A DNA stretch of 41,115 nucleotides. Origin: Betaproteobacteria bacterium HGW-Betaproteobacteria-12. Its GTDB lineage: Bacteria > Pseudomonadota > Gammaproteobacteria > Burkholderiales > Rhodocyclaceae. Each line of letters begins with the position of its first letter. Position 1 is the stretch's first letter. Of this stretch, positions 21,062-35,730 are shown one piece after another. Made by a program: the position numbers and the translations under genes. The notes under the pieces are model-generated. The model was given only the letters and a program-made list of their open reading frames with translations. It was not told the origin of the DNA and made no database searches. The stretch covers positions 1 through 41,115 of the forward strand of contig PHCU01000016.1 of assembly GCA_002842345.1 (NCBI GenBank). The letters are read 5' to 3'.

Positions 21062-21146
21062 GCCCCGATGGCGGAATCGGTAGACGCAGCGGATTCAAAA
21101 TCCGCCGCCGAAAGGTGTGCCGGTTCGAGTCCGGCTCGGGGCACCA
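21062..21146 (+). tRNA. tRNA-Leu(CAA)
   Basis: 85 nt with encoded CCA. Acceptor stem GCCCCGA / TCGGGGC; anticodon stem GCGGA / TCCGC around the loop TTCAAAA gives anticodon CAA (reads UUG); a long variable arm, as for class II tRNAs; and T-loop GGTTCGAGTCC. The 3' half is the likely attachment site of the element that follows. The gene stays intact after insertion. Confidence 0.95.
21123..21146 (+). other. attL, 3' end of tRNA-Leu
   Basis: T-arm and acceptor 3' half of tRNA-Leu. Shares GTTCGA, GGCTCGGG and CACCA, in order and nearly equal spacing, with the right-end site at 35013-35035. P4-type integrases commonly use the tRNA 3' end. Confidence 0.5.
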
Positions 21147-21181
21147 GATAGCAGTTTCAAGTAGTCCAAGCAAGTCCAGAG

Positions 21182-21205
21182 AACCCGCCTAAGTGCGGGT
21201 TTTTT
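21182..21205 (+). terminator. Terminator after tRNA-Leu
   Basis: A 7-bp stem (21182-21188 with 21195-21201), 6-nt loop and a T-run. It would end the tRNA transcript. The stretch from the tRNA to here also holds repeated GTCCA-type words that may be integrase core sites. Confidence 0.75.
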
Positions 21206-21260
21206 ATTGCCTTTCGCTCCACATCGGTCCAGAATCGTCCAAACAAATCCGGACCCCGAT

Positions 21261-21323
21261 GGGGGTAACTATGGGGGTAAGAGCACCTACCCCCACGGGG
21301 GTTACCCCCAAACACCTACCCCC
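21261..21323. repeat. GGGGGTA(A) array before the integrase
   Basis: Two forward copies 12 bp apart (21261 and 21273), then three copies on the other strand (21287, 21301, 21316). The same word recurs twice with the same 12-bp period at the right end (34941 and 34953). Placement at both ends of the element, next to int, fits arm-type integrase binding sites. Confidence 0.6.
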
Positions 21324-21365
21324 ACCGGCTACGGCGCCGCCCCGTCAATCGAAGGAGCAACCGCC

Positions 21366-22583
21366 ATGCCTCTGACCGACACTGCCATTCGTTCCGCCAA
21401 GCCGACCGAAAAGCCCTACAAGCTGGCCGATGAAAAGGGCCTGTTCCTCCTGGTGAATCCCAACGGGGCCAAATGGTGGCGCCTTAAATTTCGGGTTGGG
21501 GGTAAGGAGAAGCTGCTTTCCCTCGGGACTTACCCCGATGTCGGGCTGAAGAAGGCCAGGGCGGACCGCGATGCCGCCCGCTCCATGCTGGCGGATGGCA
21601 TTGACCCCAGCGAGCACCGCAAGGCGACCAAGGCCACCAGGGAGGCACTGGCCGCCAACAGTTTCGAAATCATCTGCAGGGAGTGGCTGCAGAACAAGCG
21701 GAGCAATATCGAGGAAGCCCAGTACACGAAGGCGCTGGCCCGCCTGGAGAAGGATGTACTCCCCTGGATTGGCAGCCGGCCAATCACCGACATAACCGCC
21801 CCCGATGTCCTGGCCGTGCTGCGCCGGATCGATGCCCGTGGGGCACGCTACACCGCCCACAAGGCGAAAAGCGAAATCAGCCAGTGCTTCCGTTACGCCA
21901 TCGCTACCGGCCGGGCCGAACGCGACCCCTGCCCCGACCTGAAAGGCGCCATCCCCGCCCCCAAGACGGAGAACCTACCCTCTATCACCAACCCCAAGGA
22001 CGTCGGCGAAATGCTGCGGGCCTTCGATGGCTTCAAGGGCACCTTCGTTGTGAAGTGCGCCCTGGAGATTGCCCCGCGGGTATTTGTCCGCCCCGGCGAA
22101 CTGCGCAAAGCCGCCTGGGAAGATATCGACCTGGAGAAAGCCGAATGGCGCTACCTGGTCACCAAGACGAAGACCGAACACCTGGTGCCGCTGGCCGCCC
22201 AAGTAGTGGCCACCCTGCGTGAACTGCAGGCACTGACCGGCCATGGCCAGTACGTCTTCCCCGGCCGCGATCCCAAGCAACCCATGAGCGAAGCCGCCGT
22301 AAATGCCGCCCTGCGCCGCTTGGGCTACGACACCAAGACCGAAATCACCGGGCATGGCTTCCGGGCAATGGCCCGCACCATCCTGCATGAGGAACTGCAC
22401 CAGAAACCTGAGGTGATCGAGCACCAGCTGGCACACAGCGTTTCTGATTCCCTGGGCACCGCCTACAACCGCACCAAGTTCCTGAAGGAGCGCAAGGCGA
22501 TGATGCAGCTATGGGCAGACTACTTGGACAAACTGAAGGCTGGGGCTGAGGTTATCCAGCTGCGAGGCAATACCGCCGCCTGA
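21366..22583 (+). CDS. int: P4-type tyrosine integrase
   Basis: 405 residues. The frame is open from 21207, but the ATG at 21366 has an AAGGAG site and begins with the family N-terminus MPLTDTAIRSAKP (DUF4102 arm-binding domain). Core-binding domain about 100-190, catalytic domain about 210-390. Active-site residues can be placed: Arg in PGELRKAAW (about 246), HGFR (about 330), His in HQLAHS and the nucleophile Tyr in GTAYNRT (about 367). It should insert and excise the element at tRNA-Leu. Direction is away from the tRNA. The GGGGGTA array lies between. Confidence 0.95.
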   Translation: MPLTDTAIRSAKPTEKPYKLADEKGLFLLVNPNGAKWWRLKFRVGGKEKLLSLGTYPDVGLKKARADRDAARSMLADGIDPSEHRKATKATREALAANSFEIICREWLQNKRSNIEEAQYTKALARLEKDVLPWIGSRPITDITAPDVLAVLRRIDARGARYTAHKAKSEISQCFRYAIATGRAERDPCPDLKGAIPAPKTENLPSITNPKDVGEMLRAFDGFKGTFVVKCALEIAPRVFVRPGELRKAAWEDIDLEKAEWRYLVTKTKTEHLVPLAAQVVATLRELQALTGHGQYVFPGRDPKQPMSEAAVNAALRRLGYDTKTEITGHGFRAMARTILHEELHQKPEVIEHQLAHSVSDSLGTAYNRTKFLKERKAMMQLWADYLDKLKAGAEVIQLRGNTAA

Positions 22584-22599
22584 CGGAATCAGGCAGAGC

Positions 22600-22631
22600 G
22601 GGCCGGATACTGTTGGAGCAGTAGCCGGCCC
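22600..22631. terminator. Hairpin after int
   Basis: Arms 22600-22612 and 22619-22631 pair over 12 of 13 positions with a 6-nt loop, 17 bp past the int stop. No T-run follows. It may separate int from the next genes or act as an operator. Confidence 0.45.
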
Positions 22632-22661
22632 TGACCATTCATCACTGCAAAGGAGTGAATC

Positions 22662-22898
22662 ATGGCTGAAAACCATTCTACCCGCGCCATCAACTCGGAT
22701 CGTCTCAACCGGGCAACGCTCAGATTGAGCGGAGCCCGCGCCCTTATTGCGACCCTCGGTGTATTGGTATCGGAATCAAGCGAGATTGAGGTGACAGGCA
22801 ATTTGATGGGAGAGGCACTGCAAGGCATTTCCTACCTGCTGGAAGATGTCGACGCCGAACTGATGGCAACCGACGCTGCAGCCCCGGCCAAGCCCTAA
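22662..22898 (+). CDS. Small hypothetical protein
   Basis: 78 residues, preceded by an AAGGAG site eight bases from the ATG. Soluble and helical, with a middle stretch ARALIATLGVLV and an acidic ISYLLEDVDAEL helix. The length and design resemble small phage/plasmid proteins, but I recognise no family. Between int and the first larger cargo gene. Confidence 0.6.
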   Translation: MAENHSTRAINSDRLNRATLRLSGARALIATLGVLVSESSEIEVTGNLMGEALQGISYLLEDVDAELMATDAAAPAKP

Positions 22899-22927
22899 TC
22901 AATTCGCAACTGCGAGGAGTTACGAAA

Positions 22928-23581
22928 ATGGCTGATGCGGAACATACCGACCTTCCACATGGCGTCTCAATTCGCCGTGAATATTCATCTGGCGTCGAGT
23001 ACATCGGAACCGAGCAAGCACTGTTAGCGGGCGGCCTTCTAACGCCTGAAGCTATCGAGGGACTAGGAAGGTTTACGCGGCAATTCACAATGTCCCCTGA
23101 TGGTAGTTTTCTGATCGTTGGCGAAGGGAAAGGCAAACGGATCACACATCGGCACCGTGAAATTGGGGCATATGCCATCAAGCGCCTACATGATGAGAAC
23201 ATTTCTCTCTTTAAGTACCGAACCAGGCTTGAGGAGATGGCCATCGATTACGCCAAACGAGAGCAGCGCGAAAGGGAGGCGCAACAGGAAGCGTGGCAAT
23301 TGGCCAAGAAGGCACACAGCCAGCCTGATTTCCCGGAGCGATGGAAAAATGGTGTCCTTTACCATGTGGGGCAGGTTGAAAAGCTCATTGATGGAAAGCT
23401 TGTTTTCACAGATTTTCCGGATATCGGTCTCAAGTCTCGCGACCTTGAGGCAGCCAAGCAGGCTGTTTCCACGCTTCGCGACATTCTCCAATGCGCCACG
23501 CCCGTTATTAAGGACAAAATTCAGCAAAGCAATGTCGTCTCCTTGAGACCTTCCGCATTTGAATACATGAAACTTGGCTGA
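22928..23581 (+). CDS. Hypothetical cargo protein
   Basis: 217 residues, start at an ATG preceded by GAGGAG. No signal peptide or membrane helix. Residues about 90-135 form a highly charged helix (AKREQREREAQQEAWQLAKKA), perhaps a coiled coil. The GC content is visibly lower than in the flanking host genes and codon use is mixed (AAA, ATT, GTT frequent), which suggests separate acquisition. I do not recognise a family. In satellites the position beside int often holds genes against other phages; here that is inference from position only. Confidence 0.6.
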   Translation: MADAEHTDLPHGVSIRREYSSGVEYIGTEQALLAGGLLTPEAIEGLGRFTRQFTMSPDGSFLIVGEGKGKRITHRHREIGAYAIKRLHDENISLFKYRTRLEEMAIDYAKREQREREAQQEAWQLAKKAHSQPDFPERWKNGVLYHVGQVEKLIDGKLVFTDFPDIGLKSRDLEAAKQAVSTLRDILQCATPVIKDKIQQSNVVSLRPSAFEYMKLG

Positions 23582-23677
23582 TCGAGCACGCCGCCCCCTA
23601 GTCCGGCCAGATGAAAAGCGGGAATCCTTCGCCCGCCTGGGGGTGGCATCCATTCGAGGGAGCGCACGAAGGGCGCT

Positions 23678-24481: not shown

Positions 24482-24579
24482 GGGATTTTTCGTCAGAGAC
24501 AGAAAAAAAACCCTATTCGACTAAAGCAAATGGACTGCCCAGTATTGCCTAGGCCTTCAACGCACTTAGGTACTACAAC

Positions 24580-24789
24580 ATGGACATTCCACAAGACGGC
24601 TTTCTCCGATTGCCGCAAATCATCGGAGATAGGAAGCGCGGCATCCCCGCGATTATTCCGGTCTGCAAATCAGCCTGGTACGAAGGGTGTCGAACGGGGC
24701 GATACCCAAAGCCCGTGCACCTTGGCCCCAAGACGGTAGCCTGGTCCCGTTCGGCCATTGCCGAACTCGTTGAGAAGCTGAAGGGCTGA
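24580..24789 (+). CDS. alpA: AlpA-family transcriptional regulator
   Basis: 69 residues, a single winged-helix/MerR-like DNA-binding domain. Pattern: FLRLPQIIGDRKRGIPAIIPV..S.WYEG...GR.P.PVHLG.KTVAW....I..LVE, typical of AlpA in P4-like islands and gram-negative PICIs, where it turns on the satellite operon and/or excision. The ATG is ~100 bp from the previous gene; that gap includes CCTAGG...TTAGG arms around 24549-24571 that may be its own operator. It starts the long operon that runs through tail, primase and onward. Confidence 0.85.
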   Translation: MDIPQDGFLRLPQIIGDRKRGIPAIIPVCKSAWYEGCRTGRYPKPVHLGPKTVAWSRSAIAELVEKLKG

Positions 24790-24791
24790 CC

Positions 24792-25094
24792 ATGGATCAG
24801 CCTTCCCTTCCCGGCATCCCCACCCTGCCGCCCTTCGCCACCGCCAACCCCCGCGAAATCCGCATCATCTGCGCCCTGGCATCCGGGGCATGCAGCCGGG
24901 AGGAACTGGACCGGATTGCCGGCGCCTCGAATGTGCCGGATGCCATCAAGGCACTGCGCCTGCGTGGCCTCGATATCCCTTGTGATCGCCTCCCGACCAC
25001 CGACAAAGACGGCGAGCCTGTTCAGCGTGGCCGCTATCGCTTCACCGATGCCGACCGCGAACGCACCGCGGCAATCTGGGGGCGGCTGCCATGA
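24792..25094 (+). CDS. Small HTH-like protein
   Basis: 100 residues, starting two bases after the alpA stop. A predicted helix-turn-helix near residues 24-58 (ICALASGACSREELDRIAG..NVPDAIKALRLRGL), and a basic C-terminus. Proteins of this design (a winged helix that senses the reading of ID/CDR loops) lie near replication genes in prophages. The end of this gene (from 25047) is one copy of a 67-bp direct repeat whose other copy is at 26294. Its ATGA stop overlap with the next frame is part of that repeat. Confidence 0.6.
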   Translation: MDQPSLPGIPTLPPFATANPREIRIICALASGACSREELDRIAGASNVPDAIKALRLRGLDIPCDRLPTTDKDGEPVQRGRYRFTDADRERTAAIWGRLP

Positions 25095-25113
25095 GCGCTC
25101 CGACCATCAAAGG
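25047..25113 (+). repeat. 67-bp direct repeat, left copy
   Basis: Covers the last codons of the HTH-like gene and the first codons of a following frame (MSAPTIKG). It matches 26294-26360 at about 57 of 67 bases, including the CTGCCATGA gene overlap. In the right copy the following frame is the tail gene start (MIVPTFKV). The segment between the copies looks like an inserted cassette. Confidence 0.8.
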
Positions 25114-25258
25114 TTGCGCGGTTAAAGCTGTTTCTGCACTGCTCGGCCGTATGGCAAAGCAACGCTATGGAAAAGCAGCGGCGACTTCCCGCGCAGGCAT
25201 TCATTCCAAACCCAAACCGGGTACCTCTACCCCTATACAACCCAAAGGAGTATCAAAC

Positions 25259-25798
25259 ATGTCCACTAATCTCTCTGTCGAAGAAATCCTGGCTCAGATT
25301 CCTGGGGCACAGCAAGCCATCGCCGAAAACACGAAAAAACGCTGGGAAGCCACTGCCAAAGAAAGAGGCGAGTTAATCAAACAGGCGATGGAGGCCGAAG
25401 CAAGGCTTCCAGAACTGGAGAAAGAACTCCGTTCCGCCCAGGCCGAAGTCAAGCGGGCCTATGAATCAATTGGAACATTGGAACGGCGGGTGTGGGCGGC
25501 GCAACAGGCCTTCTCTGATTGCCGGGGAATCTGGACTGCCCGCATGGATTCACTTGCCGAAAAATTCGGCAATAGAGAAATCAATACTGCCTTGACCAAG
25601 CTTGGCGCTTGGCGAACTCATGTCGAGTACATGGCGAAAAATGGGATTGGATCCATTGAAGCTAACCGCCAGCGTCGAGAACATGCCATCGAGGTCCAAA
25701 AGGAACTTGAGAGCCTCGTTTACGCGAATGGTCACCCGGAAGAAATAAATCAAAAAATTACCGAAGCCATGTCCTTGATCGCCATGGACGGTTTCTAA
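25259..25798 (+). CDS. Coiled-coil protein, cassette gene 1
   Basis: 179 residues from the ATG at 25259, which has AAAGGAG at the right distance; the frame is open from 25091, but that part is the repeat-derived start of a displaced gene. After a short N-terminus (SVEEILAQIPGAQQAI) residues about 25-85 form a long charged coiled coil (KEAELIKQAMEAEARLPELEKEL type). C-terminal part is helical, with no enzyme motif seen. Its stop is directly followed by the RadC-like ATG, so the two form a unit. Function unknown. Confidence 0.65.
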   Translation: MSTNLSVEEILAQIPGAQQAIAENTKKRWEATAKERGELIKQAMEAEARLPELEKELRSAQAEVKRAYESIGTLERRVWAAQQAFSDCRGIWTARMDSLAEKFGNREINTALTKLGAWRTHVEYMAKNGIGSIEANRQRREHAIEVQKELESLVYANGHPEEINQKITEAMSLIAMDGF

Positions 25799-26341
25799 AT
25801 GACTGACGATCAATCTATCGAAGCCGGACTGCTGGCCCTAACGAGGAAGCTGGAAACTGTCGGTGTCCAATTTTCCGACATGAAGGATATTGTCCGCCAC
25901 GCTGTACTGCGCCTTCATGAAGAACGTCGCGAGGTATATCTCGGCTACTGGCTGGATGAAAAACTGCGCTTGATTGATGTGTGCGAACTGGCCATCGGGT
26001 CTAGTACAGAGGTTATCTTCGATACACGTTACATCGCCCATAGGGTTGCAGCAGCCGGAGCCGCTCAGGCCGTATTTGTTCACAACCACCCATCCGGAAA
26101 CAGCCTTCCTTCACCCGAAGACCGGCAAACAGCGAAAGCCATCGATAACGCACTGATCGCGATAGGCGTTTTTCCGGCCGCTCATTTTGTCATCGGCAAT
26201 TTGAAAGCCGAAGAAATTAGGTCTGGGGAAGTAGTTGAGTTTGTCATCCGAAAGGTCGATGTAGCTATCTGCAGTTTATGCGGTACCGCCTTGAATGCTG
26301 ACCGCGAACGCACGGCGGCAACCTCGGAGCGGCTGCCATGA
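25799..26341 (+). CDS. radC: RadC-like JAB/MPN+ protein, cassette gene 2
   Basis: 180 residues. The JAMM zinc site is complete: His95, His97 and Asp108 in HNHPSGNSLPSPED (HxH-x7-SxxD). The surrounding RadC pattern is present (EVYLGYWLDEK, FDTRYIAHRVAAAGAAQAVFVHNHPSG). There is no N-terminal UPF0758 helix-hairpin part of chromosomal RadC. Mobile-element RadC proteins are common but their role is not known. The last ~16 residues (ADRERTAATSERLP) are not RadC: they come from the direct repeat and copy the end of the HTH-like protein, so the natural end is probably lost or replaced. Confidence 0.85.
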   Translation: MTDDQSIEAGLLALTRKLETVGVQFSDMKDIVRHAVLRLHEERREVYLGYWLDEKLRLIDVCELAIGSSTEVIFDTRYIAHRVAAAGAAQAVFVHNHPSGNSLPSPEDRQTAKAIDNALIAIGVFPAAHFVIGNLKAEEIRSGEVVEFVIRKVDVAICSLCGTALNADRERTAATSERLP

Positions 26342-26360
26342 TCGTTCCGACCTTCAAAGT
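26294..26360 (+). repeat. 67-bp direct repeat, right copy
   Basis: Second copy of the repeat at 25047-25113. It gives the RadC-like protein its odd C-terminus and contains the start of the tail gene at 26338. Copies differ at about ten bases, so the duplication is not recent. Confidence 0.8.
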
Positions 26361-27087
26361 GCTTGGCCTGCAGGCCCTGCATAGCAGCCTGCAAGACGTC
26401 GAGAAGCAAACCCGGTTCGGCATCGCCAAGGCCATCACCAAGACCGCCAAGGCAACTGAGCTGGCGCTGAAGGAGGAAATGCGGGCCAAGACGGATCGTC
26501 CGACGCCCCATTACATGAAATCAACCTTTGTCGCCCCGGCCACCAAGCGGCGCCTGGTGGCTCGTGTCGGCTTCAAGGATCGCCTGGCCTCGAAGAATCT
26601 CATCAGCGCCGCCGAGCGCTTCGGCCATCACTTCGAGGGCGGCGCCCGTTTGCCCAAGGGACTGGAGGGCTACCTGCGCCGCGCCGGCCTGATCGGTGCG
26701 GATGAATTCGTTGTGCCTGGTGCCGGCGTCCGCCTCGACCAGTTCGGCAACATGAGCCGCGGCCAGGTGCAACAGCTCATTTCACAGCTGCGCATCGGCC
26801 TTGACCCTTACGCCTATGCCTCGGGCAGCAAGCGCAGCCGTCGCAACGTCAAGAAGGCCGGCCGCATCTTCTGGGCCCGCGGCAATGCCCGCGATGGCCA
26901 CCTGCAACGAGGCGCCTATATCGACCTGCCGCCCCCGGTCGGTATCCGCCCCCTGCTGGTCGTCATTGACTCGCCTTCCTACAAGCGCCGCTTCGACCTG
27001 CCCCGTATCGCAGAAACCACCATCGCAAAGACCTGGGAGGAGAACCTCCGTAGCTCCCTGGTTGATGCCTTCAACTCCGCCAAGTAA
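26338..27087 (+). CDS. Phage gp10/minor tail Z-like protein
   Basis: 249 residues. It follows the pattern of the neck/tail-completion proteins of siphophages: ITKTAKATELALKEEM, then DRPTPHYMKSTFVAPATK, a V.FKDR element, GGARLPKGLEGYLRRAGL, VPGAGVRLDQFGNMSRGQVQQL, and the late RPLLVVIDSPSYKRRFDL segment. Such proteins join tail to head or finish the tail tip. The family is diverse, so the exact place in a virion is not certain. It overlaps the RadC-like stop by ATGA and is followed by a chaperone-like gene and the tape measure, the order found in siphophages. No head genes are near. Confidence 0.75.
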   Translation: MIVPTFKVLGLQALHSSLQDVEKQTRFGIAKAITKTAKATELALKEEMRAKTDRPTPHYMKSTFVAPATKRRLVARVGFKDRLASKNLISAAERFGHHFEGGARLPKGLEGYLRRAGLIGADEFVVPGAGVRLDQFGNMSRGQVQQLISQLRIGLDPYAYASGSKRSRRNVKKAGRIFWARGNARDGHLQRGAYIDLPPPVGIRPLLVVIDSPSYKRRFDLPRIAETTIAKTWEENLRSSLVDAFNSAK

Positions 27088-27099
27088 AGGACCTACACC

Positions 27100-27456
27100 A
27101 TGCCGAAAACCTTCCAAGTCAATGCCAATAACAAGACCTTCACCGTCCACGATATGACCATCGCCGAGCTACGCATCTGGTGGGATGGCATCGCCGCCCC
27201 CGGCTCGCCGTGCGACATCGCCAGCGAATACGCAGTGCCGGGGATTTCTCTGGACGACCTGGCCATGCTCTGCCATTGCGAGCTCGCCGACTTCGACGAC
27301 CTGACGGCCAGCGAGCTGGCGCCGATTGCCGAAGCAGCCAGGGAACTGAATCCGCACTTCTTCCGGCTGCGTGAATCAGTTGCCGAGGCCAGCGCCCGCG
27401 TTCTTCAGCTCTTGACCGAGACCTATACGGCTATCGCACAGGGAGAGGCCCAATGA
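27100..27456 (+). CDS. Putative tail assembly chaperone-like protein
   Basis: 118 residues, acidic and soluble. The call rests mainly on position: directly before the tape measure gene and overlapping it by ATGA. The sequence has a C-terminal helical part (LTASELAPIAEAARELNPHF) like proteins found at this place in other prophages. I see no slippery A6G-type sequence at the end that would give a G/GT-like frameshift product, so if it is a chaperone it works without one. Confidence 0.55.
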   Translation: MPKTFQVNANNKTFTVHDMTIAELRIWWDGIAAPGSPCDIASEYAVPGISLDDLAMLCHCELADFDDLTASELAPIAEAARELNPHFFRLRESVAEASARVLQLLTETYTAIAQGEAQ

Positions 27457-29690
27457 GCAACCCGAGAACAGTCGTTGAAATCGGCGGCGACAATGCGCCG
27501 CTGAAAAAGGTACTGAACGAATCGAGCGGCCTTGTCGGCAAGTTCGCCAACAACATGGCGAGCGTGCAGCAGGTTGCCGCCCAAGGCATGCAGAAGACCG
27601 GGGGCGGCTTTGCCGCGCTGGCGCTGCGTGGCCTCGGATCGGTCGCCACGCTCGCCGGCACGGCCGCCGCGGCAGCCGTCACGATGGCAAATAACGCGGC
27701 TCAGGCGGCGAACGAAATCAACAAGCTTTCTGCCAGCTCCGGCATGGGGGCGCAGGACATGGCCAAACTGTCCTATGCCTTCGATGTCGGCGGCGTTGCA
27801 ACCGAGGTTCTTGGGCAAGGGCTCAAGGGCCTGGCCATCAAGATGAACGAGGCGACCAGCGGCAACGCCGATGCCCAGGAAGCCTTCCGGGACTTGGGCG
27901 TAGAGGTCAAGGACACCAGCGGCCGGATGCGCCCGATTCAGGATGTGCTGCTAGATGTTGCCGAGCGCTTCAAGCAGATGCCAGACGGCGCCCGAAAGTC
28001 CGCCCTGGCGGTGAAGCTGATGGAAGAATCCGGACTGAAGCTGATTCCCGTACTCAACCAAGGCGCCGCCGCGATTCGCAAGTTCGGGGAGGAAGCCGAG
28101 AGCATCGGGATTGTCTTCACCCCCGAGCAACTGGCCGCGGCCAAGGAATGGGAGCAGAACCTGCAGCGCCTGAAAGCCGCCGGTACCGGGCTGGCGCACA
28201 ACGTGGGCAATGAGATTGTTCCGCACATGGCGCACCTCTCCACCATCCTGCTGGAAAACAAGGGGGCGGGCCTGGGTTGGTTCGATTCGTTCATGGCCAT
28301 GCTGACCGGCTCCAACAACCCGGCACAGCGCATTGCCGACCTGACGGAAAAGCTGGAATTGCTCAGGGCGAAACAGGCGGAACTGGCGAAGAACGGCAGC
28401 CCGGCCGATAGCGGCCTCAACGAGAAGATTGCCGAGAACGAGCGGGCGCTGGTCTATTTCACCGGCAAGGCCAAGGAAGCCGCCAACGCAGTCGAGAAGG
28501 CAGAGGCGGAAAGCGCCGGCCGCCGGGCAGACATTGAGCAGCAGCTGGCAACCAAGAAAGCCGACCTGGCCAAGTATGTGCGCTTTATCCAGACCGGCGA
28601 GCAGTCGCTGATTGAGACCAACGCCAAGGCCAGCATTGATCGCCAGATTGCTGACCAGACGCGCCTCGTTGATGCCGTCCGCAGCGCCTGGCAGCAAACC
28701 CGGAAGGATGCGGAGAAGGCGAAGACCGACGCCGCCGCGCTCAGTGGCGAAGCTTCACGGGTGCGCACCAATGCAGCGGACAAGGCGCAGCAGATGCGCG
28801 ATGGTGGCCTGACCGAAGAAGAGCGGCAGGGCGCCAATGCCTTCCGAGCTGAAGACATGCTTAGCCAGGGGCGCTTCTATGCAGCTGCAGCCGGCGCCGC
28901 CCAACTCGACGGCCGCGCCGCTCAGTTCGAGCAGTACGCCAAGCAGGCCAAGGAATTTCTTGACCGTGCCGAGAAGTTCGCCGAAGCCTCCGGCAATGCC
29001 GACCTGGTAGAGCAGACCGGCAAGCAACAGGCCGGCCTATTGGATACCCAGGCGAAGGCCAAGCAGAAGGAAGGCAGCGACCTGGACGCCCAGGCCGGCC
29101 AGCAGGCGCAGACCTTGAACGAGCTTCAGGCAAAGCTAGAAGCCCTGAAGGAAAGCGCCCGCTCCATCTCCGTGAGCCTGAAAACCGACGAACTGAAAGC
29201 CAACATTGCCGACCTCGAAGCCGAGCTGGCGAAATTGACGGCGCCGCGCCAGATCCCGGTAAGCATCGTCAAGACCGGCGGAGATACCCCCGCTCCTGCC
29301 GATACCCCGACCCGCGCCTTTGGCGGCCCACTGCCTGGCCGGGCGCCGCATGACCGGGCAGACAATCAGCTGTATTGGGGCACGCCCGGCGAGTGGGTCA
29401 TTCAGCGGCCGGCGGTTCGCCACTACGGGGCGGCTTTCATTGCGGCGCTGAATGAAATGCGGCTGCCGAAGTTCGCCAACGGCGGGCAGATTGGCGCCCC
29501 GGTCATTCGCGGACTTGATCTGCCGCGGGCAATCGCCCCCAGCACGGCCGCCTCCAAAGGTTCGAGCGGCACGCCGGTTGTGCTTGATTTCGGGAAGCTT
29601 GGCCGATATGAGACCAGCGCAAAAGAAGACGTGGCGAAAGCTGTTGTTGAGGTGTTTCGCCGTGCTGCACTGACTCATGGGGGCCGTTGA
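27453..29690 (+). CDS. Phage tail tape measure protein
   Basis: 745 residues. N-terminal domain with VEIGGDNAPLKKVLNE, a hydrophobic glycine/alanine-rich segment (about 55-85), then the conserved INKLSASSGMGAQDMAKLSYAF element of TMP family proteins. Residues about 290-610 are long charged helices with coiled-coil character. The C-terminus has the typical FGGPLPGRAPHDRADNQLY..TPGEWVIQRPAVRHYGAAFIAALN block. Such a protein is a ruler for tail length; at about 1.5 angstrom per residue this one would fit a tail near 110 nm. It is intact, with no frame break. Unusual in an element without capsid genes and placed inside the replication operon. Confidence 0.9.
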   Translation: MSNPRTVVEIGGDNAPLKKVLNESSGLVGKFANNMASVQQVAAQGMQKTGGGFAALALRGLGSVATLAGTAAAAAVTMANNAAQAANEINKLSASSGMGAQDMAKLSYAFDVGGVATEVLGQGLKGLAIKMNEATSGNADAQEAFRDLGVEVKDTSGRMRPIQDVLLDVAERFKQMPDGARKSALAVKLMEESGLKLIPVLNQGAAAIRKFGEEAESIGIVFTPEQLAAAKEWEQNLQRLKAAGTGLAHNVGNEIVPHMAHLSTILLENKGAGLGWFDSFMAMLTGSNNPAQRIADLTEKLELLRAKQAELAKNGSPADSGLNEKIAENERALVYFTGKAKEAANAVEKAEAESAGRRADIEQQLATKKADLAKYVRFIQTGEQSLIETNAKASIDRQIADQTRLVDAVRSAWQQTRKDAEKAKTDAAALSGEASRVRTNAADKAQQMRDGGLTEEERQGANAFRAEDMLSQGRFYAAAAGAAQLDGRAAQFEQYAKQAKEFLDRAEKFAEASGNADLVEQTGKQQAGLLDTQAKAKQKEGSDLDAQAGQQAQTLNELQAKLEALKESARSISVSLKTDELKANIADLEAELAKLTAPRQIPVSIVKTGGDTPAPADTPTRAFGGPLPGRAPHDRADNQLYWGTPGEWVIQRPAVRHYGAAFIAALNEMRLPKFANGGQIGAPVIRGLDLPRAIAPSTAASKGSSGTPVVLDFGKLGRYETSAKEDVAKAVVEVFRRAALTHGGR

Positions 29691-30019
29691 TGATAGCCAC
29701 ACCGAAGCTGCACAACCTGGAAGAGATCCCGGAAGGAATGACGGTCGGCGACTTCAATCCAGCATTTGCCGGCATCAGAAAGGAAATCCGGGTGGGCAAG
29801 TTCAGCGAGTGCTGCACCTGCTGCCGCAAGCCTTTCAACGCTGTCCGCAAGCCCCGCCGGGACATTCGGTTATATCCGGCTGATATCGCCGTTCCCATTG
29901 CCTGGGCTTACCCGATTTGCGGCCGGTGTGCCGTGCTGTGGCGCAACGGAGGCAGTGATCGGGAATCGGTCCTGGCGGCCGTCGAAGCCTTCCACCTGGG
30001 AGACAGGGTAGACCAATGA
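29690..30019 (+). CDS. Small Cys-rich (zinc-ribbon-like) protein
   Basis: 109 residues from the ATG at 29690, whose first base is the last base of the tape measure stop. Cysteines are grouped as CCTCC (about 40-45) and CGRC (about 76-79), with a basic stretch RKPRRD between, as in small zinc-binding proteins. I recognise no named family. It overlaps the primase start by four bases, so it probably belongs to the replication part of the operon, not to the tail. Confidence 0.6.
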   Translation: MIATPKLHNLEEIPEGMTVGDFNPAFAGIRKEIRVGKFSECCTCCRKPFNAVRKPRRDIRLYPADIAVPIAWAYPICGRCAVLWRNGGSDRESVLAAVEAFHLGDRVDQ

Positions 30020-32889
30020 GCGAATCCTTCATTCATCAGGTTGCCGGCGCCGCGCTCGGCAACTTCGATGCGGTCATGGATCATTGCGGGATGGCCGGCG
30101 GCAAGGACCAAGCCCGCGAATACCTGGCACTCAACCCGAAGCGTTCAGACGCCAAGCTGGGGAGCCTGGCCACCAATCGGGACACCGGCGCCGGGGGTGA
30201 CTTCGCCACGGGCGAGACCTGGGGCGACCTGGTTGCATTGACGGCCTGGCGCTTTGACTGCTCCCAGCTGGAAGCCGCCGAGCGCCTGGCCGACCTGCTA
30301 AGCATCCCCAAGCCGAACCGCCAGAGACGCGCCACGGGCGCCGAACGAGCCAACGGCAAGGGCAATACTCAGGCGCTGGCCCGGCGGACGCCTGCCGCCC
30401 CGGCAAACCGCAAACCCGCCCCGGCGGCTGATGACTGGCAGTGCGTTATTCCTGTGCCGGCCGATGCAGCGCCCCCGCCGGCTGTAAATCCCCGCCAAGG
30501 CCGCCCGTCCATCCGCTACGAATACCGCACCGAAGCGGGCGACCTTGGCTTCCTGATTGATCGCTACCAGGGCAAGGACGGCAAGAGCTTTGCCCAGCTG
30601 ACGCTCTGGCGAGGTCCGGACGGCCGCATCGAATGGAAATGGAAGTCACCGCCAGCGCCCCGTCAGTTGTACGGCCTTGATTTGCTGGCGGCTCGCCCGG
30701 CGGCGCCTGTGATCGTCTGCGAAGGCGAGAAGGCCGCCGAGGCTGCCCGGAAGCTGGCCCCCGAGTTCGTTTGTGTGAGCTGGCCGGGCGGATCGAACGC
30801 CGTGGATAAGGCCGGCTTTGCACCGCTCGCCGGCCGCGATGTCACGCTGTGGCCAGACCTCGACGAGCCGGGGGCGGCTTGCATGGGGAAGCTGGCGGCG
30901 ACGCTGGCAGCGCTGCCGGTGCCTCCGGTGGCGCTCTACCTGGTGAAGCCTCAGGCCTTCGGACTGAGCGGCAAGGGCGATGACGCCGCCGACCTGCTGG
31001 GATGGGATGCCGAGCGCTTTGCCGACGTCTGCACCCGCACCGAGTGGCGCACGGCAATCGAGGCCACCAAGCCGGAAAAGGAAGGCACCGCGGCTACCAA
31101 GGAAGGCAAGCCCGGCAAGGCATCGGCGCCAGCCGGCGGCCCGCGCATCTGCTACAGCCTCGATGTCGGGGGCGTGTACTTCACCGACAACGACGGCGCC
31201 GGCAAGTGGATTTGCTCATACCTGGAACCAATGGCCCGCGTGCGCAATCCGGATAACCAGGGCTGGGGCCTGCTGGTCCGCCTCTACGATCCCGACAACG
31301 TAGAGCACAAGCTGGTTATCCCGATGGCGCTGTTTCGAGGCGATGGCCTTGAGGTTGCCGGCATGTTGCTTGATGCCGGCTTGACCATGGCCACCGGCAA
31401 CCGGCAGAAGGTGATTTCCTACCTGCAGAGCACCCGGCCCGATGCCCGCGCACGCATCACCAGCCGCACCGGCTGGCATGCGACCAGCGACGGCCCGACC
31501 GTCTATGTGCTGCCAGATTGCGCCTTTGGTCATGGCGCCGATGAATGGTTGTATCAGGCCGAAGGCAGCAGCGCCCATGCCTTCAAGACGAAGGGCACCG
31601 CCGAGCAATGGCGGGACAACGTGGGGCACCTGTGCCGCGGTAATTCACGCCTGCTGTTTGCCGTCTCCGTGGCCTTCGCTTCCCCGCTGCTGCACCTGGT
31701 GGGCGGCGAATCCGGCGGCTTTCACTACCGCAGCAACTCCAGCGACGGCAAGACAACGGCGCTCCGGGTTGCTTGCTCGGTCTGTGGCGACAACGGCTAT
31801 ATGCAGCGCTGGCGGGCAACAGACAACGGACTGGAAGCCCTGGCCATGCAGCACTGTGACTCCCTGCTGGCCTTGGACGAACTGGCCCAGCTTGACCCCA
31901 AGGTGGCCGGCGAAACCGCTTACATGCTGGCCAATGGTGCCGGCAAGACCCGCGCCGCCCGCACGGGCGGGGCACGGGAGCGGGCGTTCTGGCGGGTGCT
32001 GTTCCTCTCGGCTGGCGAGATCAGCCTGGCGCAGCACATGGCCGAAGCGAACCGCACAACCCGCGCCGGGCAAGAGATTCGCCTGGTCGATATCAACGCC
32101 GACGCGGGGGCGGGCCTCGGTGCCTGGGAAGAGCTGCACGGGCACGCCAACGGTGCCGACTTTTCCCGCGCCCTGGATCAGGCTGCCAAGCGCCAGTACG
32201 GCGCCCCGCTGGCTGCCTTTCTGGACAAGCTGGCCCGTAGCCCTGCCGACCTACCGGAAGAGCTGCGCAAGGCACAGAAGCTGTTCGAGGCGCAGCACCT
32301 GTCCGACGATGCCAGCGGCCAGGCTCGCCGGGTTGCGGATCGCTTCGCCCTGGTTGCGATGGGCGGCGAGCTGGCCACCAAGTGGGGCTTGACCGGCTGG
32401 GAGCCCGGCGCCGCGCTGGCTGCTGCCGGCACCTGTTACCGGGCATGGCTGGCCGGGCGCGGTGGCGAGGGCAATCAGGAAGAAACCAACATGCTGAACC
32501 AGGTGCGTGAGTTCTTCGAGCGGCACGGGGATGGCGCCTTTGACCTGTGGCACCGGGTAGGCGACGACCGCAGCCCGCGGACGGCCGATGCCGCCGGCCT
32601 GCGCCGCTGGCTGCAGCCGGACGGCACCCCGATTGCCAAAGCCGGCCAGATTGAAGAAGGCAGCAACGGCGCGGAGTTCCAGACCGAATTCTTTGTGTTC
32701 GAGGGGCCTTGGAAGAACCGGGTTTGCAAGGGTCTGGACTACCGTGCTGTCAATGCGCTGCTCTCCAAGCTCGGCATTCTTCGCCACAACAAGGGGCGCT
32801 TCCAGTCGCGCCTGCAGATACCCGGCAAGGGGAAGATGCTGGTCTATCACATCACTCCGCAACTGTTCGAAGGGGGCGCCGATGCTTGA
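30016..32889 (+). CDS. Toprim/DUF927 primase-helicase
   Basis: 957 residues. An N-terminal region binds no clear zinc ribbon. A Toprim-like part has VIVCEGEKAAEAA (EGEK at about 236-239) and DLDEPG (about 281-286). A DUF927 domain follows (about 370-700), with Walker A SDGKTT (about 576-581) and Walker B LLALDE (about 617-622). The rest is a helical C-terminus with a final winged-helix-like segment. This is the replication protein of the element: primer synthesis and DNA unwinding. It starts inside the end of the gene before (ATGA) and its end overlaps the next gene. Similar proteins run replication in P4-like and PICI-type elements. Confidence 0.85.
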   Translation: MSESFIHQVAGAALGNFDAVMDHCGMAGGKDQAREYLALNPKRSDAKLGSLATNRDTGAGGDFATGETWGDLVALTAWRFDCSQLEAAERLADLLSIPKPNRQRRATGAERANGKGNTQALARRTPAAPANRKPAPAADDWQCVIPVPADAAPPPAVNPRQGRPSIRYEYRTEAGDLGFLIDRYQGKDGKSFAQLTLWRGPDGRIEWKWKSPPAPRQLYGLDLLAARPAAPVIVCEGEKAAEAARKLAPEFVCVSWPGGSNAVDKAGFAPLAGRDVTLWPDLDEPGAACMGKLAATLAALPVPPVALYLVKPQAFGLSGKGDDAADLLGWDAERFADVCTRTEWRTAIEATKPEKEGTAATKEGKPGKASAPAGGPRICYSLDVGGVYFTDNDGAGKWICSYLEPMARVRNPDNQGWGLLVRLYDPDNVEHKLVIPMALFRGDGLEVAGMLLDAGLTMATGNRQKVISYLQSTRPDARARITSRTGWHATSDGPTVYVLPDCAFGHGADEWLYQAEGSSAHAFKTKGTAEQWRDNVGHLCRGNSRLLFAVSVAFASPLLHLVGGESGGFHYRSNSSDGKTTALRVACSVCGDNGYMQRWRATDNGLEALAMQHCDSLLALDELAQLDPKVAGETAYMLANGAGKTRAARTGGARERAFWRVLFLSAGEISLAQHMAEANRTTRAGQEIRLVDINADAGAGLGAWEELHGHANGADFSRALDQAAKRQYGAPLAAFLDKLARSPADLPEELRKAQKLFEAQHLSDDASGQARRVADRFALVAMGGELATKWGLTGWEPGAALAAAGTCYRAWLAGRGGEGNQEETNMLNQVREFFERHGDGAFDLWHRVGDDRSPRTADAAGLRRWLQPDGTPIAKAGQIEEGSNGAEFQTEFFVFEGPWKNRVCKGLDYRAVNALLSKLGILRHNKGRFQSRLQIPGKGKMLVYHITPQLFEGGADA

Positions 32890-33595
32890 CCTGGAAAGCC
32901 TGTTTTCTGCCCTGCCGCCTCCGGCTGCTGTGTCTGCTTCCGGTGCCTCTGACGCTCAAGCCAGACACAGCGGACACAATGGAAACACCCCTGATTTTGC
33001 CCAAGTGTGTCCGCCGAATCCATTGCAGCACAAGGCGTTCAGTGCCATAGACACAGCAGACACAGCAGACACAGTGCATTTTCAAGGGGGGGAAGATGGG
33101 CAAGACCACCGGGCACCGGGTGGGGGTGCGGCAGTTTTTGATTTCGCGCTGCACCCGGCGGCTGTAATCCTTGCTCTGGCCTACTGTCGGAAGGTGAAGG
33201 CGAGCAATGACGAAAGGGTTGCAGCGCTGCTTCACCTTCAGACTATGCCACCTGGTCAGCAGATACAGCACTGGCACTCGGTCTGCATCGATGTCGGTCT
33301 GAAGCCTTGGGAAGAGTTGCTGATACCAGCCCCCGCTTCCGGCCTTGACTGCACCATGTGCAAGCACCTGACCACCAGGCAGATGGCTGGCGATAGTGGG
33401 CGCCGTGAATTCCATACGGCATGTGGTCAAGGCTTCCTGATCCTGGAGACAGGCCGGGGCACTGAACGGATATGGCTGGCCCCTCCTGACTGCAAGAGCT
33501 TTGAACGCTGGCGCCCTGGTATCCAGACGTCTGCACCCATCACCTACCGTGCCGACCTGCTGGCCAGTAGCCAGCCCGGCAAGCCGTCGGAGTAG
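32882..33595 (+). CDS. Cys-rich hypothetical protein carrying a repeat arm
   Basis: 237 residues from the ATG at 32882, which lies inside the primase end. Residues about 27-72 are encoded by one arm of a 136-bp inverted repeat and read HSGHNGNTP..., then a run of DTADTADT. The part after it (about 85-237) looks like the real domain: ALHPAAVILALAYC, then CTMC (about 157-160), an HTACGQG element, and a W-rich end. The Cys/His set could bind zinc or Fe. Proteins like this follow the primase in other satellites or prophages, but I cannot name it. The repeat may have invaded an older gene in frame. Confidence 0.6.
   Translation: MLDLESLFSALPPPAAVSASGASDAQARHSGHNGNTPDFAQVCPPNPLQHKAFSAIDTADTADTVHFQGGEDGQDHRAPGGGAAVFDFALHPAAVILALAYCRKVKASNDERVAALLHLQTMPPGQQIQHWHSVCIDVGLKPWEELLIPAPASGLDCTMCKHLTTRQMAGDSGRREFHTACGQGFLILETGRGTERIWLAPPDCKSFERWRPGIQTSAPITYRADLLASSQPGKPSE
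32960..33095 (+). repeat. Inverted repeat, left arm (~136 bp)
   Basis: Matches the reverse complement of 34285-34421 at about nine of ten bases. Inside is a 9-bp tandem repeat (ACACAGCAG-type, 33050-33074). The arms enclose ~1.19 kb with the Cys-rich domain, the direct repeats and terS. Confidence 0.85.
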
Positions 33596-33597
33596 GT

Positions 33598-33646
33598 CAG
33601 CGGGTCCTTCCTGAGCCTTCCCCCTTCGGGTAATGCTAACCCCGGT
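33598..33646 (+). repeat. 49-bp direct repeat before terS
   Basis: Begins three bases after a stop codon and matches 34190-34239 (about 90%). Contains GGGTCCTTCCT and a near-palindrome GGGTAATGCTAACCC. Could be a cos- or TerS-binding site, or an operator. Confidence 0.7.
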
Positions 33647-33684
33647 TGACCGCCAGTTCTGGGCTGGCAGAGGAGGTAAGTAAG

Positions 33685-34188
33685 TTGCGCATTGTCGGCC
33701 AGGAACAGATTGCCGACTTCTTGGGGGTTGCCCCCAAGACCATCGTTGAATGGCAGGAACAAGGGCTGCCAATCGAGGTTCGTGGTGGACCTCATGTCCC
33801 TTCTGAATATGATTCAGTGGCCTGCATCAGCTGGATGATTGACCGGGCACTGAAGAAGGCCGGTAGCGAACGCCCCCAGGATCGAGAGGCGAGGCTTAAC
33901 GGCGACTTGAAAGAGATCCTGCTGGCAGAGAAGAGAGGAACCCTGATCTCCGTTCAGCAGATTGAGCCCAAGCTCCGAGCGGCCATCGTTGCAGCTCGAG
34001 AGTTCTGGAGAAACGAGCCAACACGATTGGCCAGAGAGGTGCCCGGCAAACCAATACAAGAAATTGAGGGCCTTCTGTCGACTTCGTTCGAGGGCTTCCT
34101 GGTGAAGCTTTCCCGGTGGCCACAAATGGAGACTGTCGACGATACCGACGAGGAAAACGGGCAGAGCAATGCAAGCCAACCGCAATAG
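33685..34188 (+). CDS. terS: Terminase small subunit (Nu1-like)
   Basis: 167 residues from a TTG at 33685 with a strong AGGAGG site eight bases upstream; the frame opens at TTG 33646, which lies in a repeat. N-terminal winged helix-turn-helix (VGQEQIADFLGVAPKTIVEWQEQGLP, VPSEYDSVACISWMI) of the Nu1 type, then a helical oligomerisation part (EPKLRAAIVAAREFWRNEPTRLAREV). TerS picks the DNA to be packaged. No large subunit gene is near. In PICIs a lone satellite TerS redirects the helper phage terminase to satellite DNA, so this is strong support for satellite life. Direct repeats stand on both sides. Confidence 0.8.
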   Translation: MRIVGQEQIADFLGVAPKTIVEWQEQGLPIEVRGGPHVPSEYDSVACISWMIDRALKKAGSERPQDREARLNGDLKEILLAEKRGTLISVQQIEPKLRAAIVAAREFWRNEPTRLAREVPGKPIQEIEGLLSTSFEGFLVKLSRWPQMETVDDTDEENGQSNASQPQ

Positions 34189-34189
34189 A

Positions 34190-34239
34190 CAGCGGGTCCT
34201 TCCTGGAGCATTCAGCTTTCGGGTAATGCTAACCCCGGT
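34190..34239 (+). repeat. 50-bp direct repeat after terS
   Basis: Second copy of 33598-33646, beginning two bases after the terS stop. The core words GGGTCCTTCCT and GGGTAATGCTAACCCCGGT are kept; the middle is variable. Confidence 0.7.
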
Positions 34240-34284
34240 CTGTATCCAGTCGCCCGCCCTGAAGCCCGCTTGACATGCTTGACC

Positions 34285-34421
34285 CTTCCCCCCCCTTGCA
34301 AATGCACTGTGTCTGCTGTGTCTGCTGTGTCTATGGCATCGAACGCCTTGTGCTGCAATGGTTTCGGCGGACACACTTGGTCAAAATTGGGGGTGTTTCC
34401 ATTGTGCCCGCTGTGTCTGGC
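34285..34421 (-). repeat. Inverted repeat, right arm (~137 bp)
   Basis: Reverse-complement partner of 32960-33095. Read on the minus strand it would code nearly the same peptide (HSGHNGNTP, DTADTADT), which shows the DNA was copied, not that a gene lies here. Confidence 0.85.
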
Positions 34422-34435
34422 AAGGCCTTGAACCG

Positions 34436-34729
34436 ATGGCCTCAAATCAACCAGAACAGCCGCCCCGCCTTGATCTTCGGCGATTTCCTGCAACGCCAGA
34501 CCGTACACAGCTGCAGAGCTTAATCGAGCTCGCCGCCGCTCCGGTTGGCGGCCAGGAAACCAGGGCACGCCCATCGAAGCGGACACACTTTGCTTCACGG
34601 ACGACCGGCCGCCCCTGGTGGCCAGTGGCACACCGGACGACCGGCCGCCCTGCGCCCTTCTGGCCTCTGTGTTCGCGCCGCCAAGAGACAGCAGGGAGCA
34701 TTGCAGGGCATTTTTCGGCGCGCGTTTGA
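34436..34729 (+). CDS. Doubtful small ORF
   Basis: 97 residues from an ATG with a weak AAGG upstream. The first 45 residues look like protein (MASNQPEQPPRLDL, LQSLIELAAAPVGG); the rest is rich in Arg, Pro and Trp and overlaps a duplicated 16-bp word (GGACGACCGGCCGCCC). It may be a real last gene of the element or only a chance frame. No homologue recognised. Confidence 0.25.
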   Translation: MASNQPEQPPRLDLRRFPATPDRTQLQSLIELAAAPVGGQETRARPSKRTHFASRTTGRPWWPVAHRTTGRPAPFWPLCSRRQETAGSIAGHFSARV

Positions 34730-34940
34730 TCTACTGCCGCCCCTCCCCGCCGGCGAAAGTGGCAATACTCTTGGCTTCCGAATGCCTTGCCGCAGTGCTG
34801 ACGTCTGCACTGGTCGGCACCCTAACCCGCCGCCGGTATCTGCTTCCGAATAGCCGTAGTGCAAGTGATAGAATCGCGGCCTCCCACGACGTCCCTCTGG
34901 GGAGGTCGCTCATTTGGTGTTTCTGCAACATCGTTTAAAT
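34730..34940. other. Gene-poor right end of the element
   Basis: No convincing gene. It has a TAGAAT -10-like box (34869-34874) and, just after it, a hairpin with arms CCTCCC (34880) and GGGGAGG (34899-34905), which could mark a short RNA or a late terminator. Nothing else is clear until the GGGGGTAAC pair. Confidence 0.35.
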
Positions 34941-34961
34941 GGGGGTAACTTTGGGGGTAAC
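34941..34961 (+). repeat. GGGGGTAAC pair at the right end
   Basis: Two copies 12 bp apart (34941 and 34953), the same word and period as before the integrase (21261 and 21273). Probable arm-type integrase site 50 bp from the putative attR. Confidence 0.6.
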
Positions 34962-35012
34962 AGTGATTTTCGAAAAACGATTATCCCTGTGCCGCAACAG
35001 TTTCCGCCATTT

Positions 35013-35035
35013 GTTCGATGAAGGCTCGGGCACCA
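35013..35035 (+). other. Putative attR, degenerate tRNA-Leu 3' end
   Basis: GTTCGA-N4-GGCTCGGG-CACCA matches the tRNA-Leu 3' end (21123-21146) except the four bases after GTTCGA and one missing G. Not perfect, as an old or tolerant crossover might leave. It sits 51 bp past the GGGGGTAAC pair, a fitting distance. Confidence 0.5.
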
Positions 35036-35413: not shown

Positions 35414-35730
35414 GCGGCCAGCGCCTCTTGGTGTGCTGCCTTCTTGCTGCCCTTGGGCTTCTTGATCGTCACTGAGGGCGCAAGTCCCGCCGTGGCAGCC
35501 ATATCAATCAGGGTATCGAGCGAGAACAGATTGATTCTCCCCCGCACCAAGTCCGAAACTCGCGGCTGGGTTACGCCGAACATTCCAGCGGCAGCTGCTT
35601 GGGTCAGCCCTTCGGACTTGAGCCACTTCTGCAATGCCATCATCAGTTCCGAGCGGACGCGCATACTCGCCGCCTGTTGCGGTGTGTCCTCGATTGCATC
35701 CCATACGCTGGTAAATCTTTGCTCGCTCAT
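35410..35730 (-). CDS. XRE-family antitoxin
   Basis: 106 residues from the ATG at 35730, with a GGAGG site upstream; the frame further up is the toxin's shadow. HTH of the HTH_37/XRE type: LMMALQKWLKSEGLTQAAAAGMFGVTQPRVSDLVRGRINLFSLDTLIDMAATAGL. Such proteins are the antitoxins of Gp49/RelE-like toxins and repress their own promoter. Coupled to the toxin by ATGA at 35727-35730 and to the HigA-like gene downstream. Confidence 0.85.
   Translation of the reverse strand: MSEQRFTSVWDAIEDTPQQAASMRVRSELMMALQKWLKSEGLTQAAAAGMFGVTQPRVSDLVRGRINLFSLDTLIDMAATAGLAPSVTIKKPKGSKKAAHQEALAA

Follow-up and report, generated by a model that had tools for sequence, protein, structure and literature searches.

Capsid-forming phage-inducible chromosomal islands (cf-PICIs) are defined by capsid and packaging genes of their own. 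P4-like satellites carry a P4-type integrase, an AlpA-type regulator, a primase and ori/crr repeats, together with Sid, Psu and delta/epsilon, and have a P2-type helper. In Vibrio, PICI-like elements (PLEs) were demonstrated in 2026 to form chimeric tails with a satellite-encoded tape measure protein (TMP), and deletion of tmp in PLE11 lowered transduction by about 99.9% (PMC12987554). Putative tmp genes are named in PLE-like elements and cf-PICIs in a figure legend of the same paper. Tail piracy with a satellite-made TMP has so far been shown for a single family of satellites, whose helper is lytic and has a contractile tail. Among gram-negative PICIs, EcCICFT073 has two cosN sequences (PMC6092414). 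AH14b of Pseudomonas sp. ANT_H14, a satellite with DUF927 and AlpA, is induced by mitomycin with its helper and packed in helper capsids (PMC4936722). Here, we describe a 13,889-bp island that extends from the 3' end of a tRNA-Leu(CAA) gene to position 35035 of contig PHCU01000016.1 of Betaproteobacteria bacterium HGW-Betaproteobacteria-12 (GCA_002842345.1); the window is the whole stretch analysed, 41,115 nt of the forward strand. The island is probably an integrated satellite that parasitises cos-packaging phages of the lambda type, with siphophages the likeliest among them, and that provides its own tail interior and travels in chimeric tails.

Like P4-like satellites, the island contains an integrase that we take to be of the P4 type, an AlpA-type regulator, and a primase accompanied by repeats suggestive of ori/crr. 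In contrast to them, its open reading frames (ORFs) gave no Pfam or PHROG match named Sid, Psu or P2-type regulator; no direct comparison with P4 was made. The island resembles the gram-negative PICIs of the EcCICFT073 type in its attachment (att) site with a dedicated integrase, its AlpA and primase, and its small terminase subunit (TerS), which is present in some of them (PMC6092414). Unlike them, its cohesive-end (cos) sites are joined to iteron-bearing inverted arms and to a cassette of tail-completion protein (TCP), tail assembly chaperone and TMP; the available portion of PMC6092414 mentions no tail genes for those islands. The island shares with the PLEs a satellite-encoded tape measure and a putative tail assembly chaperone. 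The PLEs differ in their Vibrio host, their lytic helper ICP1 with a contractile tail and their island type, and some add a baseplate hub (PMC12987554), whereas the island has a probable lambda-type helper and a TCP, and its relatives are betaproteobacterial. Some cf-PICIs are likewise drawn with putative tape measures (PMC12987554), and the host family of the island includes capsid-carrying satellites with cos or cosQ-like sites (loci L169 and L143). Compared with cf-PICIs, the division appears reversed, with an own tail interior and a stolen head. AH14b is similar in its integrase (41% identity), AlpA and DUF927 protein (37% over 447 aa), but its one helper-like tail gene, for assembly protein I, is described as outside the mature tail (PMC4936722), and no TMP, TCP or cos pattern was found in it. 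The chances are about even that the island represents a cos-packaged lineage that brings a matched tail interior and steals the helper head and outer tail, a mirror image of the cf-PICIs. If so, tail piracy would extend to lambda-type phages and to a lineage of the AlpA/primase type that is unrelated to the PLEs, it would include a tail-completion protein, and the inside of a phage tail would be an exchangeable cassette. Searching genomes for the cos pattern is an easy way to find such satellites and their helper types.

With high confidence, the island is a satellite of phages and belongs to the PICIs in the wide sense. It has a dedicated integrase and a specific chromosomal att site (tRNA-Leu(CAA) in five elements), an AlpA regulator with a primase-replication module, and a TerS with two predicted cos-like copies, three of the traits by which gram-negative PICIs are recognised (for the last, TerS or a helper cos or pac site). 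A preliminary description of the locus had reported the integrase beside tRNA-Leu, AlpA, the DUF927 primase and a Nu1-type TerS within about 13.9 kb, and ARAGORN together with Pfam and PHROG scans of the 15 element ORFs bore this out. The same scans agreed with it that large terminase subunit (TerL), portal and capsid genes are lacking (no such family at E up to 0.1), and with them the capsid and packaging genes of a cf-PICI. A non-satellite integrative element, such as a defence or plasmid-like island that merely lost or gained phage genes, is quite improbable. Pseudomonas islands with an integrase, AlpA and DUF927 do carry cargo that reads as defence genes, and DUF927 proteins are found on plasmids, but the cos of the island stands at the position it has in phages, TerS and tail genes are present, and the satellite AH14b has the same general build. 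The cos pattern also accompanies Pseudomonas-type primase loci, near the primase in L099 and about 10 kb away in L042.

The tail module, named in passing in the preliminary description, proved to be the main point. It consists of three adjacent genes for the TCP, a tail-assembly-chaperone-like protein and the TMP (Table 1), and corresponds to the inside of a siphophage tail, without tube or tip. All 18 members of the TCP family that were scanned match phrog_1924, nine match phrog_27 ('tail completion or Neck1') and two match PF06763 (Minor_tail_Z). The AlphaFold model of the TCP (predicted local distance difference test score 82.8) has a long N-terminal helix (residues 11-51), a strand-bearing middle and a C-terminal helix (residues 221-247), the order described for the completion protein of phage 80alpha; lambda gpZ has an additional beta part compared with the latter (PMC11661146). 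The phrog_7608 family, to which the chaperone-like protein belongs, occurs in 6 of 200 genomes of the order, own included. In four of the five other genomes the gene immediately precedes a long, apparent tape-measure ORF, and in G117 and G192 this ORF also matches the TMP of the window; in the remaining genome the gene sits at a contig edge. In Pseudomonas phage LESphi3 a 29% homologue is encoded between the major tail gene and the TMP, directly before the latter, where a tail assembly chaperone has its place. Its fold matches are weak and include HK97 2ob9 (rank 10), the PLE protein 5ir0 (rank 32) and YqbN (3klu, rank 42), which we take to be a tail assembly chaperone; several matches in BFVD carry that name. 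The PLE-type pair of a satellite-encoded TMP and chaperone is thus present, the chaperone being recognised by synteny and these fold matches. PDB sequence searches gave nothing useful.

The cassette recurs in related elements. The minor-tail (tail-completion) protein was matched in 18 of 399 genomes of the order; its closest relative outside its own genome is in the same-genus genome G218 (71% identity), the next best reaching at most 42%. G218 contains the same element in the same tRNA, with identities of 85% for the integrase, 81% for AlpA and orf6, 71% for the minor-tail protein, 46% for orf10 (the chaperone-like protein), 55% for the TMP, 51% for orf12, 82% for the primase and 57% for orf14; the RadC module and TerS had no match there. 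The primase matched 71 loci when genome contigs were scanned. Three are in Rhodocyclaceae (70-87% identity; L037 in a Dechloromonas metagenome-assembled genome, L038, and L039 in an Azonexus metagenome-assembled genome) and 68 in Pseudomonas, Stutzerimonas and Azotobacter (37-43%), and in these 68 the window minor-tail protein, TMP and TerS had no match. Within the genus, the primase was matched in 20 of 76 genomes and at 70% identity or more in six, which define the elements compared below: own, G218, G526 (L037, taken as one record), G511 (coordinates as L038), G540 (coordinates as L039) and G534 (L192). Insertion into tRNA-Leu(CAA) is visible in five of the six; the G540 contig begins within the integrase. 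The tRNA-Leu site, the integrase-core-primase order and the inverted repeats are shared with other same-genus genomes.

The full cassette is present in three of the six elements (own, G218 and G526). G540 contains only a different TCP homologue, located after orf14, and no part of the cassette was matched in G511 and G534. In the three cassette elements the proteins are 46-76% identical, with gene order and intact frames kept. The TMP is 745, 742 and 744 aa long at 56-72% identity, and the last 150 columns of its alignment are the least similar block. Approximate ratios of nonsynonymous to synonymous change (dN/dS), obtained with a Nei-Gojobori script for the three elements, with L038 added for the integrase, are 0.08-0.18 for the TCP, 0.14-0.21 for the TMP and 0.26-0.35 for the chaperone-like gene; outside the cassette they are 0.11-0.12 for the primase and 0.05-0.11 for the integrase. 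The tail cassette is under purifying selection. That a ruler protein varies by no more than three residues in length, even as up to 44% of its sequence changes, favours a function in tail building. An ordinary cos/TerS PICI whose tail genes are passive or recent cargo is improbable: the history of the island is modular, with a RadC module between direct repeats, TerS in one of the five elements that can be assessed for it and the full cassette in three of six, but three elements at this divergence would hardly keep gene order, frames, selection and TMP length for cargo.

TerS in the window is flanked by two copies of a predicted lambda-type cos. The preliminary description missed both this duplication and the sharing of the cassette by three of the six elements. 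The motif GGGTCCT occurs nowhere in the window besides the two copies. The names cosQ and cosN follow PMC6092414. A strict cos pattern has two matches in the own genome, both flanking TerS, and was found in 11 of 101 family genomes (own included) and 7 of 76 genus genomes; a reversed control pattern gave no match in the own, family and genus scans. All 11 places outside the own genome from the family scan were inspected. TerL and portal genes are present at L168, L174 and L175. A primase match without a TerL or portal match characterises L170-L173, L177 and L178, some on short contigs; in L173, apparent tail or baseplate genes lie on the opposite strand. L169 combines an integrase with a capsid gene, and L176 is of ambiguous type. 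In the prophages L024, L026, L168 and L174 the completion gene stands on one side of the cos and TerL on the other. In LESphi3 its neighbours are 'minor tail protein Z' and TerS, and the spacer is longer. L024 and L026 had been considered as satellites, having a tail gene near TerS, and were rejected because they contain genes that read as TerL and portal, which also supplied the queries for these two.

A looser pattern, which unlike the strict one detects G218, is found in exactly the four of six elements that have a completion gene (own, G218, G526 and G540), six being too few for a statistical test of this link, and not in the G511 or G534 element. Two cos copies are also present in L177 and L195. 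By comparison, TerS is found in the own element only, one of the five that can be judged; G540 cannot, because its contig ends 284 bases after cos. The cos therefore appears to be a more general packaging signal than TerS, and TerS, a hallmark in the preliminary description, was rejected as a defining feature. In G526 the cos and the TerS leader are kept, with 81% similarity over 93 columns that ends at the TerS start, and TerS is absent. TerS has thus come or gone at this site. It is quite likely that the island uses lambda-type cos packaging. Novelty by gene order, proposed earlier, gives way here to a stronger ground, the conserved tail-interior cassette together with the cos architecture. 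Tape measures of satellites have meanwhile been described for PLEs, and putative ones are depicted for cf-PICIs (PMC12987554). The lineage or variant is new and is distinguished by this cassette and by a variable TerS slot with cos copies on either side. No description of the lineage, and no paper joining 'phage satellite' and 'Rhodocyclaceae', was found in literature searched by title and start of abstract, which covers few subscription journals.

Other genes were noted beside cos in these loci. Small proteins with an N-terminal transposase DUF772 domain recur beside cos, or after the primase, in satellites, all on the minus strand. They are Pfam-confirmed at L020 4780-5295, L170 9386-10045 and L171 718-1215, and were identified by similarity at L194 5632-6129, L198 4325-4810 and L234 9278-9709. 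In G218 such a protein occupies the slot that holds TerS in the window. It is possibly a domesticated DNA-binding protein; a literature search joining DUF772 with 'phage-inducible' found no paper. Elements without cos share a GGGAGGGGGGGTTAAAAGTCC stretch (L038 7780-8130 and L192 13060-13420), and similar stretches adjoin cos in L194 and L196. L143 (G150, tRNA-Val) and L169 (G431, tmRNA) are capsid-carrying satellite-like elements of the same host family, each with an integrase, a cosQ-like or full cos site, a TerS or TerS-like gene and a capsid gene; the L143 TerS is 50% identical to that of the window. S49 protease genes, as in phage heads, are present in the primase elements L172 (5376-6719) and L042 (13896-15002), and no capsid gene was recognised on the stretches viewed.

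The helper type is indicated by a same-genus prophage on contig C23 of G512. Its genes are ordered as a phrog_27 completion gene, a cosQ-like site, TerS, TerL, portal and S49 protease, and further on tail terminator, major tail protein, a chaperone (36%) and a TMP. Its TerS is 67% identical to the element TerS over 158 aa by tblastn and 66% over 157 aa by blastp, and its 732-aa TMP is 33% identical to the element TMP over the full length. At the DNA level, similarity around TerS amounts to 70% over 460 columns and starts just after the cosN-like part. The terminator and tube genes of the prophage lie outside the set of TCP, chaperone and TMP that the satellite carries. One lambda-type TerL query matched 9 of 76 genus genomes, seven strongly and two (G530 and G218) weakly. 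Of the earlier assignment to a betaproteobacterial siphophage, the satellite nature is supported, as is dependence on a lambda-type phage, through the cos and the G512 prophage homologues of TerS, chaperone and tape measure. The remnant of a deleted prophage is very improbable. Phage-type tail genes and TerS without head genes would fit it, but the two phages whose gene order was traced, the G512 prophage and LESphi3, have their head genes between TerS and the chaperone-TMP pair, unlike the element, and several elements have AlpA, DUF927 and the inverted iteron arms in common. Capsid, portal or TerL genes in relatives at the same locus had been named in advance as the finding that would favour such a remnant; queries for all three had no match in the loci of the five related elements, L038 and L039 being limited by contig ends. 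A decayed prophage was thus rejected on comparison with relatives and on dN/dS.

From the anatomy, integration site, recurrence, purifying selection, shared cos and helper-type homologues observed above, we infer how induction, replication from an origin, packaging, use of a helper and tail exchange might proceed. When a helper phage enters or is induced, AlpA would turn the element on, the integrase would excise it, and the DUF927 primase-helicase would replicate it from the iteron arrays in two inverted arms. The helper terminase, alone or through the element TerS, would cut concatemers at cos and fill helper heads. The element chaperone would load the element tape measure, which is of helper-like length, and the element TCP would cap the DNA end and join it to the tape measure. 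The helper would provide head, connector, tail tube and tip, giving virions with chimeric tails. The element would thereby gain a matched path from DNA end to tape measure and take tail parts from the helper. When 80alpha produces SaPI1 virions, the DNA end in them is capped by the completion protein, which forms a sheet with the TMP N-termini and has little contact with outer neck proteins (PMC11661146). A completion protein, chaperone and tape measure acting together could replace the tail inside without fitting every outer part. PLEs act in a comparable way with their TMP and chaperone (PMC12987554). That the element spreads in particles with chimeric tails is slightly favoured over the contrary. 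It is unlikely that the cassette is instead an interference weapon, a decoy TMP and chaperone that poison helper tails while satellite DNA leaves in helper tails. Interference with tail assembly, also acting on PICIs, is published as an antiviral strategy (PMC11364771), and the full cassette is optional, but a decoy would have no need of a tail-completion protein, or of a TMP that keeps its length and is under purifying selection, and the PLE tmp deletion reduced satellite transfer (PMC12987554).

Several observations weigh against an island that is cos-packaged into chimeric siphophage-like particles. No relative of the element was found in two viral-contig scans, made with TCP and primase queries. 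In the own genome, a 95% complete assembly, one lambda-type TerL query had no match, so no resident helper was found. One gene of L024 looks like a tail sheath gene; the cos class is therefore not limited to siphophages, and cos alone leaves the helper tail type unfixed. The cosN-like sequence of the prophage with the similar TerS differs from that of the element (window 33601-34229 versus L230 6400-6530), so the element TerS and cosN may mismatch. The TCP model found no match in the PDB with Foldseek, and its likeness to published TCPs would lie in secondary-structure order only. The chaperone-like protein, assigned by gene position and weak fold matches, has no PDB or BFVD fold match at E 0.001 or better. 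The dN/dS figures are rough because synonymous change is near saturation. Finally, neither the full cassette nor cos seems essential to the island: the cassette is incomplete or absent in three of six elements, and cos is missing from two of these as well.

Four of the five elements tested (the window, L020, L037 and L038) contain inverted arms of 133-142 columns that are 91-94% alike within an element; none were found in L039, which is truncated. The 9-bp repeats in the arms are of the GACACA type in the window and L037 and of the GGCACA type in L020 and L038, with both arms alike. As both arms change iteron type together, they may constitute a binding site, most simply for the primase. For the same reason, an insertion sequence as the source of the inverted repeat is unsupported. 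Repeats of a comparable kind are bound in replication at P4 ori and crr. The arms are a candidate replication origin.

Table 1. Positions of the features of the island in the window.
Feature	Position	Strand	Evidence and relatives
tRNA-Leu(CAA), integration target	21062..21146	+	ARAGORN; same tRNA in L020, L037, L038, L192
attL, tRNA 3' end	21123..21146	+	19/24 columns match attR
Arm-type integrase repeats GGGGGTAACTATGGGGGTAA	21261..21280	+	similar repeats in L037, L038
Tyrosine integrase	21366..22583	+	Pfam PF13356, PF22022, PF00589: arm-binding, central, catalytic domains
Cargo ORF, 78 aa	22662..22898	+	no family at E < 0.01
Cargo ORF, 217 aa	22928..23581	+	no family at E < 0.01; 37% relative in L037
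Cargo ORF, 267 aa	23678..24481	+	single sub-threshold Pfam match, E 0.006
AlpA regulator	24580..24789	+	PF05930, E 2e-6; 81-91% in L020 and L037
Core ORF (orf6), 100 aa	24792..25094	+	relatives at 60-81% in all 5 other elements
65-nt direct repeat, left copy	25048..25112	+	88% to right copy
Inserted coiled-coil ORF (orf7), 235 aa	25091..25798	+	weak SMC/JetC-like matches; no match in relatives
Inserted RadC/JAB-domain ORF	25799..26341	+	PF04002, E 8e-21; no match in L020 or L037
65-nt direct repeat, right copy	26295..26359	+	88% to left copy
Tail-completion protein TCP (lambda gpZ family)	26338..27087	+	phrog_1924 'minor tail protein', E 2.5e-47
Tail-assembly-chaperone-like protein (orf10)	27100..27456	+	phrog_7608; precedes TMP directly in prophages and LESphi3
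Tape measure protein TMP, 745 aa	27453..29690	+	PF10145, E 1e-10; phrog_8462, E 1e-39
ORF (orf12), 110 aa, travels with tail cassette	29687..30019	+	51-58% in L020 and L037
Primase-helicase (DUF927)	30016..32889	+	DUF927, E 2e-78; PHROG DNA primase, E 5e-87
Core ORF (orf14), about 237 aa, cysteine cluster	32882..33595	+	recurs in relatives, e.g. G218 57%
Inverted-repeat arm A with 9-bp iterons	32960..33092		94% complementary to arm B; build shared by 3 relatives
cos copy 1: cosQ-like CGGGTCCTTCC, then cosN-like GGGTAATGC	33601..33636	+	just before TerS
TerS (lambda Nu1 type)	33685..34188 (likelier start); longest ORF 33646-34188	+	Phage_Nu1, E 4e-8; PHROG terminase small subunit, E 2e-20
cos copy 2	34193..34229	+	just after TerS
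Inverted-repeat arm B	34289..34421		complementary to arm A
Arm-type integrase repeats, right end	34941..34961	+	same in relatives
attR	35013..35035	+	same form in L020, L037, L038

The G+C content is 0.606 in the island and 0.656 in the flanks. The 15 main ORFs, one more than counted previously, all run in one direction. The end repeats reported earlier are real, their local score of 13 exceeding the 99th percentile of 1000 random stretches (11; maximum 15), but they are imperfect rather than matched throughout. Arm-type GGGGGTAA repeats are present at both island ends, and the right end of three relatives (L020, L037 and L038) has the same form, with GGGGGTAAC arm repeats. The likelier TerS start, a TTG, was judged by its ribosome-binding site. 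The coiled-coil and RadC/JAB pair (25048-26359) is absent from G218 and L037, where orf6 adjoins the tail-completion gene directly; because of this junction, the pair looks like a clean insertion. No match to orf12 was found in L038, L039 or L192.

A defence role for the cargo was considered and dropped, as PADLOC and NCBIfam yielded just weak coiled-coil matches for orf7. The same searches gave one weak HamA match for an ORF of G218. Just beyond attR, at 35054-36053, lie two helix-turn-helix genes and a Gp49/RelE-type gene that are toxin-antitoxin-like. A helix-turn-helix relative (77% identity) of this region is cargo within the L038 element, where it lies beside the integrase.

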